Assembly (NCBI GenBank): GCA_020349245.1
Contig: CP070764.1
Span: 2,183,319-2,216,125 of the forward strand
From: Chloroflexota bacterium
GTDB taxonomy: Bacteria; Chloroflexota; Anaerolineae; Anaerolineales; UBA4823
DNA: 32,807 bases
Reading direction: 5' to 3'
Shown in pieces: positions 484 through 32,788 of the stretch. A model generated the notes under the pieces. That model was not told the origin of the DNA, did not search any database, and saw only the letters and a list, made by a program, of their open reading frames with translations. Within the stretch, counting starts at the first letter, position 1. Every line of letters starts with the position of its first letter. A program made the position numbers and the translations under genes.

Positions 484-2043
484 ATGAGCGAAGGAATTCT
501 GATGCAAAGGGCTTATACCAGCGTATTACGGCATTTCATCGAACATGGGCGAGCCCCCCATTATGTCGAGCTGGCGAGGATCCTCGATATTGAAATCGAT
601 GAAGCCCGGGTTTTGATTAAGGATACGGCAGCTGCAGCCCCAATCGCCAGCTGTTGGTTGTCTCACGATACAGACTATATTGAGTCCTGGGCGCCTTTTT
701 CAAATGTCCCCACTCATATAAGGATCTCTGTAGATGGGATGCAGAAATGGTATGGGCAGTGAGGGATGGAAGTGCTGGCCGTGCGCTGGCTCTTCCCGGG
801 TAAAGAGATCCGCGTTGACACGGTTTGTCTGGATTGCGGAGAACCAATCGTGGTCCGAATGCGAGATGAAGAGATCCTTGAAATCAATCCTCCGACCGCG
901 ATTGCTTATTTGATGTCTCCTTTTGCTAAATGGCGGGAAGGGACGGGCGCATTTAATTGAAGCCGGATGAATATCTTCCGGTCGGAAGAACATGTAAAGC
1001 GATGGTCTCTCTATTACCGGATGGCAGAAGACTATATCATGCCGGTCACAGATTGGGCGCAGGTCTTCAGCGGTCCATTGTTCCGCAGACGCCTTGAAGC
1101 GGATTACCTGACAAATGCAGATGCGTATTTCAGCGAATACCAATCCTCATTGAGGAACTTTGGAAAACAAAGCCCCTTCTGGCAGTACCCCATGATTGCG
1201 GGCATGGACATTGTCAAGCTGCCTCGCTATGCTATTGTTGGAAAATATACCCGTTTTGAAGAACAAGTCCTTAACGAATTAAAGGATGCCAAGCAGAGTA
1301 TTGTATCGTCCTTGGCGGATGTTTCATCCTCGCGTAAGAATTTCTTGATTTGGGCTGCCCCAGGGAGCGGGAAGACATTCTTTGCCCAGCAGATCGCTGC
1401 GGCACAGGGGCAGAAATTTGACTACCGCGAGATTAATCTAGCCCAGGTCCGGGAAGGTGAATTCGTGGCTTCACTTGCCGCGTTGGTCCAGTCGTCGAAC
1501 CCGCTTCTTTGTTTGATCGATGAAATTGATGCAAAACCGCACGAGTCATGGCCATACGACGTTTTGCTACCCTACTTGGATGCTTCACTAACCAGGCACA
1601 CGCCGCTGGTCCTAATCATGGCTGGCAGTTCAGGTTTCAGTCTCCAGGGGATGAAAGAAAGGATGGCTGTACGTCCAAAAGGACATGATCTCCTCAGCCG
1701 TATCCCAGCGGAAAACCAGTTCATCATCCCCCCGATGAGTTTTGGAGACCGTATATTGATTGTTCTCAGCCAATTTGCTCAGGCGGGTCACGAGTTGGGG
1801 CACGAGATTAACTTCGTTGAGAAGCTCGGTCTTTATTATGTAGCGCTGAATGAGCAATTAGCGAATGCCAGGCAGCTACACGAGTTTGCAGTTCGGGCTG
1901 TTGAAAGGGTTCCTCACGGGGATGACCGGGTAAAGTACGATAACTTATTCGTGCCGGGAGACCCGGAAAATAAACGTTTCTGGCTGGAAGTATCTTCTGT
2001 GGCCCAGGAATTGGTAAACAGCTATGTGACAATCGAGGAGTGA
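484..2043 (+). CDS. MerB-like organomercurial/organometal lyase with two predicted selenocysteines, fused to an AAA+ ATPase
   Basis: Three open stretches (484-762, 766-960, 967-2043) share one frame and are separated only by TGA codons at 760-762 and 958-960. Read through, they give 519 residues. Residues 1-75 resemble the MerB N-terminal helical domain. Residues 76-215 follow plasmid MerB closely: the first TGA (residue 93) sits at catalytic Cys96, Glu96 stands where MerB has Asp99, the structural cysteine of MerB Cys117 is kept, and the second TGA (residue 159) sits at catalytic Cys159, just before an MNIFRSEEHV segment matching the MerB HVHFFAS region. From about residue 235 an AAA+ domain follows: Walker A APGSGKT (Lys297), Walker B LIDEID (Asp346, Glu347), a possible arginine finger in LLSRIP, and a sensor-2-like NARQL. 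Known MerB breaks carbon-mercury bonds with two Cys and one Asp. I infer that Sec replaces both Cys. An AAA fusion to this lyase is not something I recognise. Any role of the ATPase (substrate delivery, remodelling) is open. Decay by two nonsense mutations is the alternative; both falling on catalytic Cys sites makes it unlikely. Confidence 0.85.
768..796 (+). promoter_or_regulatory. SECIS-like hairpin after the first in-frame TGA
   Basis: GGAAG (768-772) pairs with CTTCC (792-796). After one T-T mismatch, GCTGGC (774-779) pairs with GCTGGC (785-790) using four Watson-Crick and two G-U pairs. The apical loop is CGTGC (780-784), with G at the second loop position followed by U. The loop starts 17 bases after the TGA at 760-762. 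Bacterial SECIS elements recognised by SelB are hairpins just downstream of UGA whose loop carries an early G, commonly GU, and which lies about 16-37 bases away. The match is by eye, not by a scoring program. Confidence 0.7.
974..989 (+). promoter_or_regulatory. SECIS-like hairpin after the second in-frame TGA
   Basis: TCTTCC (974-979) pairs perfectly with GGAAGA (984-989) around the tetraloop GGTC (980-983). The loop begins 19 bases after the TGA at 958-960. GGUC at the loop is the same core seen in the apical loop of the E. coli fdhF SECIS. The stem is short (6 bp) but has no mismatch. It is fully inside coding sequence, as is normal for bacterial SECIS elements. Confidence 0.7.
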
Positions 2044-2171: not shown

Positions 2172-2669
2172 TTATTCTCCTCCAGCACCTGCTCCCAGGG
2201 CTTTGCTCCTTTCAATGGACTGCAGGGCTAAGTAGCGCTCGCCAAACTTTTCAATATTTTCCATTTCTGTATCGTACTGATCAAAATGCCGCTCCTCATC
2301 ATCCACTAAACCCTCAAATACTTTCTTGGAAGCCGAATCGGCATTGGCAGAACATTCATTGGCCCAGAGGTTGTAATCTTTGGCGCTGTCTTCCTCCATT
2401 TTTCTGGCCAGCTCCAGCATTTTCTTGACCTCGTGGATTTTCTGCACCGGCACTGCGGCGACCATTTCCACTTCGCCACCCAGGAACAAGATTCGCTCAG
2501 CACAACGCTCTATGTGGCCCATCTCTTCGATCGCGGTCTTGAAAAATAACCCGGACAGCAAGTCGTAACCCTGGTCCTCGCAGTGGAAGTGGAAGTACAT
2601 GTACTGGTGGACAGCTGATAGTTCATCTGCAACCGCTTTGTTGAGCAGCTCAATGCTTTTTTCGTGCAT
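2172..2669 (-). CDS. bfr: Bacterioferritin
   Basis: This 165-residue protein is close to the usual bacterioferritin length of about 158. It stores iron by oxidising Fe(II) at a di-iron site in each subunit of a 24-mer. The ferroxidase ligands can be placed at E16, E49, H52, E92, E125 and H128. Met50 in the EEMGH motif matches the Met52 that binds haem between subunits in E. coli Bfr, so this is a haem-type bacterioferritin and not a plain ferritin. I chose the ATG at 2669 because AGGAGG (2677-2682) sits seven bases upstream; an open frame continues to 2705 but without such a site. A good promoter (2711-2739) lies just upstream. A VOC gene precedes it on the same strand about 110 bases away, but bfr has its own promoter. 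Confidence 0.93.
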   Translation of the reverse strand: MHEKSIELLNKAVADELSAVHQYMYFHFHCEDQGYDLLSGLFFKTAIEEMGHIERCAERILFLGGEVEMVAAVPVQKIHEVKKMLELARKMEEDSAKDYNLWANECSANADSASKKVFEGLVDDEERHFDQYDTEMENIEKFGERYLALQSIERSKALGAGAGGE

Positions 2670-2710
2670 TTGTCTACCTCCTGTGAATAGTGAAATCTTT
2701 AACAAGATTA

Positions 2711-31339: not shown

Positions 31340-32788
31340 GTGTACGACATTGTTGTGCTGGGCGGTGGCCCAGCAGGCGTGACAGCTGCCTTGAGAGCGA
31401 GTGAATTGGGTGCAGACGTAGCCCTCCTTGAACGTGATCTTTTGGGAGGTACCTGCACCAATGATGGTTGTGTACCCACGCGATTCTTGGCTCATTCTGC
31501 GCGTTTGGCTCGTGAGGCAACCCAGTTTGCAAATTATGGTCTCGTTGCAGATAGCCCCCTAATAGATTTTAACAGGCTCATGGAACAAACCCGGCGAAAA
31601 ATCGAAGAGATCCACGAGAAGAAGCAGCTACAGCAGCATCTGCAGGATTTAGGCGTAGAAGTCTTCACTGGGTTGGGTGAGGTACGGTTCTTGGACGCAA
31701 AAACGGTCACCACTGCTGATGGAAAGACATTTGAAGCCGAAAAGTATATCCTCTGCGCAGGCGGTCACGCCCGCCGGATAACTTTTCCGGGCAGCGAACT
31801 GGCTCTCACGCACAGTGACGTCTGGTCACTCAGTAAGCTGCCGGAGTCAGTCGCTATTGTGGGAGGTTCCGCAACAGGCTGCCAGCTGGCATCCATATTT
31901 GCCGCATTTGGTTCAAAGGTAAATTTACTAGAGATCGCACCACGCTTGCTTGGCATGGAGGATGTAATCATTTCCGATACCATCGCTGATTCATTTTCAC
32001 AACGGGGGATTGAAGTGGTCACAGGAATAAATGGGGTGGAGCGTATTGAAGAAGGAGAGAGGGAGTTGATCCTCTGGTATAAGCACCAGGGACAGCTTAT
32101 ACAATTCAAAGGTGAAGCAGTAATTCTCGCCACTGGTTGGCCTGGTAATGCTGAGAAATTAAATCTTGAAGCTGCTGGAGTGCAGAGTGAGCGGGGTTAT
32201 GTACTGGTTGACGAGTATTTAAGGACCTCTGCGGCGCACATCTTCGCCGCAGGAGATATTACCGGGCGCATGATGCTTGTGCAAAGCGCGGGCTATGAGG
32301 CGCGCATCGCAGCTGAGAATGCAATCCTAGGCCCTGGGCAACCTTACACCCATAAAATTGTGCCCCATGGAGGATTCACAGACCCCGAATATGGAAGTGT
32401 TGGCATGACCGAAGAGCGCGCCCGCGTTATTGAGCCAGATTGCTTGGTCGATTCAGTGCCCTATGCTGCCTTGGACCGTGCGATAATTGACAACCACTCG
32501 CAGGGTTTTTGCAAACTGATCGTATCCCAGGAAACGCACCGCATTATGGGTGCACATGTCATCGGGGAACAAGCCTTGGAAATTGTTCAACTGGTTGGGG
32601 CGGGGATGGCGGCAGATATGTGGATTGAACATTTGGCTGAACTGGAGCTGGCATACCCGACATACACAGCGATCATTGGTTTGGTCGCCCGAAAAATCGT
32701 CCACCAGCTGGGTGTGGTTCCGCTTTCTCCACAATGGCGTTCAATAGGTAAACCTTCCGCGGCGGAATGGGAGCGAGATTCGAATTGA
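31340..32788 (+). CDS. FAD-dependent pyridine nucleotide-disulfide oxidoreductase (dihydrolipoamide dehydrogenase/MerA/SthA-like)
   Basis: The protein has 482 residues. The FAD-binding GGGPAG (residues 8-13), the redox pair Cys39/Cys44 in GGTCTNDGCVP, a second Rossmann loop GGSATG, and AAGDITG are all typical of class I disulfide reductases. The C-terminal catalytic pair of dihydrolipoamide dehydrogenase (HPTxxE) is replaced: the place reads AYPTYTAI, so His is Tyr and Glu is Ala. Tyr at this point is known in soluble transhydrogenase (YPT), while mercuric reductase also lacks the His. The vicinal C-terminal cysteines of MerA are absent. The natural substrate is open. The GTG start at 31340 has GGGAGG six bases upstream. 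The next gene overlaps in TGATG. Confidence 0.85.
   Translation: MYDIVVLGGGPAGVTAALRASELGADVALLERDLLGGTCTNDGCVPTRFLAHSARLAREATQFANYGLVADSPLIDFNRLMEQTRRKIEEIHEKKQLQQHLQDLGVEVFTGLGEVRFLDAKTVTTADGKTFEAEKYILCAGGHARRITFPGSELALTHSDVWSLSKLPESVAIVGGSATGCQLASIFAAFGSKVNLLEIAPRLLGMEDVIISDTIADSFSQRGIEVVTGINGVERIEEGERELILWYKHQGQLIQFKGEAVILATGWPGNAEKLNLEAAGVQSERGYVLVDEYLRTSAAHIFAAGDITGRMMLVQSAGYEARIAAENAILGPGQPYTHKIVPHGGFTDPEYGSVGMTEERARVIEPDCLVDSVPYAALDRAIIDNHSQGFCKLIVSQETHRIMGAHVIGEQALEIVQLVGAGMAADMWIEHLAELELAYPTYTAIIGLVARKIVHQLGVVPLSPQWRSIGKPSAAEWERDSN

Follow-up and report, generated by a model that had tools for sequence, protein, structure and literature searches.

MerB, the organomercurial lyase, depends on three essential residues, Cys96, Asp99 and Cys159, and in current models its Cys96 passes the metal to MerA (PMC8261052). 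The enzyme releases its metal through thiol attack, the removal of the first cysteine being rate-determining on one computed path (PMC4525700). A relative, SaoL of the SAO system (NF040728), is tabulated as a selenoprotein with one selenocysteine (Sec) and a CU motif (PMC13188914, which names Haft and Gwadz 2023 and Haft and Tolstoy 2025 as its sources). Here we describe a gene at positions 484-2043 of a 32,807-nucleotide (nt) stretch of DNA from a Chloroflexota bacterium (contig CP070764.1; the whole stretch is called the window below), in which a MerB-like half is followed by an AAA+ ATPase half and a TGA codon stands in frame at the positions of both Cys96 and Cys159. We consider it probable that this is a single gene in which both TGAs are very likely read as Sec, and whose MerB-like and AAA+ protein is likely a carbon-metal lyase, with metal release predicted to be driven by the ATPase.

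The initial annotation of the window, made without database searches, had read three open stretches in one frame, split by TGA at 760-762 and 958-960, as the gene of a double selenoprotein. Our reading of the open reading frames (ORFs) confirms this layout: from an ATG at 484 the frame is open over 484-759, 763-957 and 961-2040, is broken only by these two TGAs (hereafter sites 1 and 2) and closes with a terminal TGA at 2041-2043. The two contexts are Q-TGA-G at residue 93 and N-TGA-S at residue 159. The features of the gene are the following:

484..2043, plus strand: whole gene, a 519-residue MerB-like/AAA+ fusion whose residues 93 and 159 are encoded by TGA (from the reading frame and the DNA of relatives)
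760..762, plus strand: first in-frame TGA, residue 93, at the position of MerB Cys96; predicted selenocysteine (alignment)
768..796, plus strand: hairpin of predicted selenocysteine insertion sequence (SECIS) 1, loop 780-784 with GT at 781-782 (constraint, folding, covariation)
769..771, plus strand: codon of Glu96, at the position of MerB Asp99 (alignment)
826..828, plus strand: codon of Cys115, at the position of MerB Cys117, first Cys of CLDCG (alignment)
958..960, plus strand: second in-frame TGA, residue 159, at the position of MerB Cys159; predicted selenocysteine (alignment)
962..1000, plus strand: predicted SECIS 2, with inner hairpin 973-990, GGTC loop 980-983 and variable outer stem 962-968/994-1000
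967..2043, plus strand: ORF of 358 amino acids, the sole product of gene callers, starting at Met162 behind the second TGA
1231..1971, plus strand: AAA+ ATPase domain, about residues 250-496 (PF00004, fold matches)
1360..1377, plus strand: Walker A motif PGSGKT, residues 293-298 (sequence)
1513..1530, plus strand: Walker B motif LIDEID, residues 344-349 (sequence)

When read through, the protein scores 62.4 bits against the Pfam family MerB (PF03243; cut-off 27), and the match extends from residue 72 to 193, past both TGAs; of the pieces taken alone, the middle one scores 22.9 bits, below the cut-off, and the first gives no match. In structure comparison the predicted MerB fold also runs through both codons, and the MerB-like part amounts to about the first 205 of the 519 residues. 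All 14 members of the alignment of relatives used here (A3, window included) match PF03243 at E <= 0.01, and nothing else in the window's genome matches MerB at E <= 0.001. A profile of 14 relatives, aligned to the sequences of solved MerB structures (matches to MerB 3f2g at E 2.6e-4 and to MerB2 5c17 at E 1e-10), places residue 93 opposite Cys96, the Cys of YAWC, and residues 115 and 159 opposite Cys117 and Cys159, respectively; Glu96 falls at Asp99. The placement of the two TGAs on Cys96 and Cys159 in the initial annotation, its YAWC flank, its match of the CLDCG cysteine with Cys117 and its replacement of Asp99 by Glu all hold in this profile alignment. Its description of the gene as MerB-like is right for the N-terminal part, but the C-terminal AAA+ half had been overlooked.

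Twelve loci came from a scan of named genomes: eight are fused (L018-L024 and L029, labelled as five Chloroflexota and three Actinomycetota), and four (L025-L028) have the AAA+ part and no in-frame MerB part. With the window included, all nine fused loci carry both TGAs in identical columns, 66 codons apart and with zero further in-frame stops, and the metal-site positions TGA, Glu, Cys and TGA are kept in 9/9, Glu replacing Asp99 in every case. A search of 400 sampled genomes of the phylum (four matches at E <= 1e-30, own genome included) also yielded stand-alone genes of roughly 230-240 codons that lack the AAA+ domain. Among the five stand-alone loci, four (L031, L032, L034, L035) have both TGAs, spaced by 66-68 codons, and the fifth (L033) keeps the TGA of site 2 but reads TGC at site 1. 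That two nonsense mutations should land on exactly these codons by chance had been judged improbable in the initial annotation, and the presence of both TGAs in 9/9 fused and 4/5 stand-alone genes bears this out. Three of the stand-alone two-TGA genes (L032, L034, L035) are MerB-like paralogues within one Chloroflexota genome.

Among 400 sampled genomes of the order, seven matched, own genome included, one of them with the C-terminal end only and one with truncated N-terminal copies only. The gene of L018 (uncultured Anaerolineales bacterium) is present in a genome placed in the genus of the window, and between the window and L018 the proportion of nonsynonymous differences (pN) is 0.07-0.10 versus 0.71-0.90 for synonymous ones (pS) in all three segments. 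In another genome of this genus, L040 and L042 are tandem N-terminal copies about 1.6 kilobases (kb) apart that keep the first TGA and lose the match soon after it. No relative was matched in plasmid records or viral contigs. Our counts exclude L036-L039, which in the region compared equal the proteins of L018, L020, L021 and L024, the partial matches L040-L042, L046 (82.4 bits, one TGA) and L043-L045 and L047, which are the L032-L035 genes again; no count is drawn from A2, a first alignment of 11 sequences.

The DNA behind each TGA is constrained beyond its coding content. Synonymous constraint was scored in 513 eight-codon windows along the nine aligned fused genes (520 codon columns). The top 17 windows all lie at the TGAs, where z peaks at 14.7 (site 2) and 11.1 (site 1), against a best value of 5.7 elsewhere (mean 0.9, standard deviation 2.3). 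Folding energy relative to codon shuffles likewise places its top 11 of 507 windows at the two TGAs. At site 2 the inner hairpin reads TCTTCC-GGTC-GGA(A/G)GA in 14/14 genes, with the GGTC loop present in all 14; a GGUC loop is also found in E. coli fdhF. The outer stem of site 2 is variable, with 67% of cells paired, and holds all 12 cells changed on both sides, a number reached in 1/500 shuffles; RNAalifold predicts only the inner hairpin from the site-2 alignment. At site 1, where pair counts omit L033 (codon TGC), the loop contains GT (781-782) in 13/13 TGA genes, and in L033 the loop is GATCA and the GT is lost, a single case. Bases 780 and 783 of this site (columns 21 and 24), both third codon positions, match in 13/13 genes (C-G 9, A-U 2, G-C 1, G-U 1), a score that 0/500 shuffles reach for a pair picked post hoc, after the sequences had been viewed, and with shuffles that ignore relatedness.

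Published rules for bacterial SECIS elements give a loop of 3-9 nt, a stem of 4-16 base pairs, a G among the first two loop bases, a spacing of 16-37 nt and a minimum free energy of at most -7.5 (PMC13188914). The hairpins agree with the loop, stem, G and spacing rules in 13/13 TGA genes at site 1 and 14/14 genes at site 2, and, when cut out, with the energy rule in 12/13 and 11/14, respectively; the 54-nt fold at site 2 of the window has -13.1.

Cys and TGA were also found to alternate in both columns, a mixture that the initial annotation had proposed to look for. Besides the TGC of L033 at site 1, the metagenome protein P0017, which contains both domains, has Cys at site 2 in a listed sequence that begins behind site 1, and of the MerB-part relatives, 120 listed out of 1043, five have Cys at both sites. 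In the same set, 54 proteins with Cys at site 1 stop exactly in front of site 2, and a further four with Cys stop one residue off; we infer that in proteins ending at site 2 the TGA was taken as a stop. The remaining combinations include Ser/Trp (two), Ser/Cys (one) and Cys/gap (one). A tree was built from residues 12-156 of 60 proteins out of the listed 120, with both sites masked, and serves as a sketch only. In it, the smallest clade to enclose all nine fused genes (support 0.949) takes in seven further proteins, each with Cys at site 1 and its end at site 2, so the exchange at site 1 seems to have been repeated.

The genome of the window (4.5 Mb, a single scaffold with N runs) encodes selA, selD and tRNA-Sec above cut-off, as well as selB in two halves at 507 and 725 kb, about 217 kb apart, of which the N-terminal half is above cut-off. 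Because both halves adjoin N runs and share DVRFRL, selB is probably one gene split by scaffolding. In the eight further matching genomes tested, selA and tRNA-Sec are above cut-off in 8/8. The selD gene of the window's genome (L015) has an in-frame TGA of its own, in the context CAG-TGA-ASK, and SelD is thereby itself a predicted selenoprotein. Taken together, the conserved TGAs, the hairpins, the exchange with Cys and the sel genes support the double selenoprotein first proposed in the initial annotation, and Sec is very probably inserted by SelB at each hairpin.

The AAA+ half matches PF00004 with 30.9 bits (cut-off 21.2) over about residues 250-496, fold matches agree, and G294, G296, K297, D346 and E347 are invariant in 9/9 fused genes. 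Structure lists for this half contain p97, Rix7, FtsH and others, none of which is singled out, and a PADLOC scan of it gave no match. Among 120 listed whole-protein relatives (of 572, own included), 100 start at Met162 and 18 further down, the longer ones being P0017 and P0121. Because those 100 begin behind the second TGA, databases retain the ATPase part but miss the selenium part. The AAA+ module also occurs with other partners, namely a NACHT/STAND-like ATPase and TPR (L025, 5722-8814), TPR (L026, 5872-8358) and an abhydrolase end in the metagenome protein P0121; such changes of partner were seen in an Actinobacteria metagenome-assembled genome (MAG), a Thermoplasmata MAG and a metagenome protein.

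If the TGAs are Sec, the TGA/Glu/TGA arrangement would be chemically analogous to the MerB triad, and a reaction course can be proposed. Sec93 and Sec159 would take up R-Hg or another organometal, Glu96 would assume the proton role of Asp99, R-H would leave, and the metal would remain between the two selenolates. We hold this course to be somewhat more probable than otherwise, given that the fold and the four metal-site positions favour an organometal lyase. The substrates are likely carbon-metal bonds, with organomercury as first candidate. The selenolate pair would be expected to grip Hg(II) harder than the cysteines of MerB, which lose the metal to thiols (PMC4525700) or hand it to MerA (PMC8261052), and because this would make release harder still, the AAA+ domain might open the site and pass the metal on. 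We offer such ATP-driven opening and hand-over only tentatively. It is likewise a speculative possibility, and rather an unlikely one, that these genes represent an overlooked family of organometal lyases of Chloroflexota and Actinomycetota, with a Sec-pair site and a fused branch that spends ATP on an AAA+ demetallation motor. If true, this would be an ATP-coupled, selenium-based demercuration enzyme that is mostly annotated as a truncated AAA ATPase. A Sec pair on both metal positions of a carbon-metal lyase fold would directly test why selenium serves against mercury, and the AAA+ fusion would tie organometal cleavage to ATP. We know of no MerB relative in which organometal cleavage is linked to ATP.

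Several observations weigh against the reading as a double selenoprotein lyase. The initial annotation had named decay of close relatives as a ground for refutation; the nine fused loci show no further in-frame stop, but one same-genus genome holds truncated copies only. Residues other than Cys or Sec, another ground it had named, do occur: Ser stands at site 1 in 3 of the 120 listed relatives. The four sel genes whose presence it had suggested checking were all found, but selB lies in two pieces, and the machinery says little by itself: because selA is above cut-off in 321/400 sampled genomes of the phylum, its presence lends weak support. The proposed SECIS search gave rule-fitting hairpins behind both TGAs but no SECIS family in Rfam (window at gathering score; 740-1060 at E up to 10), and the 18-nt inner hairpin of site 2 in the window alone reaches -7.3 kcal/mol, short of -7.5. 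At site 1 the post hoc 780-783 pair would close a two-base loop and so may be a looser contact, and covariation in the helix without it is not above shuffles. As for the lyase, the Cys96/Asp99/Cys159 triad of MerB is replaced here by TGA, Glu and TGA, the NCBIfam MerB models score far below cut-off (NF033555 24.6 of 200 bits, NF009710 26.7 of 193 bits), and Pfam detects no mer gene among 17 flanking ORFs picked from eight fused loci and one stand-alone locus. ATP-driven release also has to accommodate the stand-alone relatives that have no AAA+ domain.

The main rival to a lyase is a sensor or signalling role, which we think possible at best and less probable than cleavage. The Sec pair of the double selenoprotein would then bind an organometal or metal ion or switch redox state, and the AAA+ domain would relay the signal. 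An AAA+ module that joins other partners (P0121, L025, L026) would suit signalling, and no common neighbour is shared among the 17 flanking ORFs scanned, just as no mer gene is; the Glu in place of Asp99 in all nine fused genes points the same way. Yet a sensor would not readily account for a metal site of TGA, Glu, Cys and TGA kept whole in 9/9 of them, or for stand-alone relatives that have no AAA+ output domain.

It is very improbable that the gene simply encodes the SaoL of the SAO system, extended by a further domain. SaoL is a tabulated selenoprotein related to MerB (PMC13188914), as the initial annotation had suggested, and its model NF040728 is the best NCBIfam match of our protein; however, the score of 34.9 bits is far below the cut-off of 140, as are those of ten relatives (24.6-45.3 bits), and the gene has two TGAs, the second in the context N-TGA-S and not CU. 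The link to SaoL is a distant family tie.

Fainter still is the chance that TGA encodes tryptophan, either organism-wide, under code 4 or 25, or restricted to these genes. Trp does occupy both columns in 53 of the 120 listed relatives, but gene callers applying code 4 have probably turned TGA into Trp there. Of the nine fused genes, three end in TGA (window, L019, L020), three in TAA and three in TAG, and because the sequence behind is unrelated, TGA works as a stop too. The sel genes are present, Cys aligns at these positions in MerB and other relatives, and a constrained hairpin follows each TGA, all of which argue against tryptophan. Least probable of all, to the point of being negligible, is a pseudogene or a set of separate small genes with the 358-residue AAA+ ORF as sole product, for although gene callers give just this ORF from Met162 and a same-genus genome has truncated N-terminal copies, both TGAs are kept in 9/9 fused genes, pN is far below pS in the three segments, and the MerB match and fold span both TGAs.

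In the surroundings of the gene, a ferritin-like protein (PF00210, 96.7 bits) is encoded directly downstream on the opposite strand (window 2172-2705, minus strand). At 31340-32788 lies a pyridine nucleotide-disulphide oxidoreductase that passes no NCBIfam cut-off, its best models being dihydrolipoyl dehydrogenase (328 bits, cut-off 408.8) and mercury(II) reductase MerA (317.2 bits, cut-off 454.45). As to an SAO operon with other Sao genes, no transporter was found by Pfam in the 17 flanking ORFs or in the window ORFs scanned; TGA counted as a stop in the ORF calls, and no search of the genome with Sao models was made. A tRNA scan of the window found none.

Neither a double-Sec MerB nor a MerB-AAA+ fusion was found in the open literature; this covers open papers only and does not prove absence from print. 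In the portions of PMC13188914, PMC12013277, PMC11227280, PMC9312934, PMC5029168 and PMC2398784 that were accessible, neither of these two forms is described, and the accessible text of the first, a 2026 review, contains "AAA" in 0 places and "MerB" in two. The searches made yielded no AAA+ ATPase of the p97, Rix7 or FtsH type that is linked to a MerB fold, and the AAA+ half shares 15-20% identity with ATPases of these types in the matched rows. Both hairpins resemble the bacterial SECIS model: a G is found within the first two bases of the loop, and the loops lie 17 and 19 nt downstream of their TGAs. Like SaoL, the protein belongs to the MerB superfamily, and NF040728 matches it over residues 14-139. 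Unlike SaoL, it has two TGAs, placed on the metal positions, no CU motif and an added AAA+ domain. Compared with MerB and MerB2 (PF03243; PDB 3f0o, 5c17), Cys96 and Cys159 are replaced by TGA and Asp99 by Glu, the scores lie below the NCBIfam MerB cut-offs, and the MerB-like part is fused to an AAA+ ATPase.
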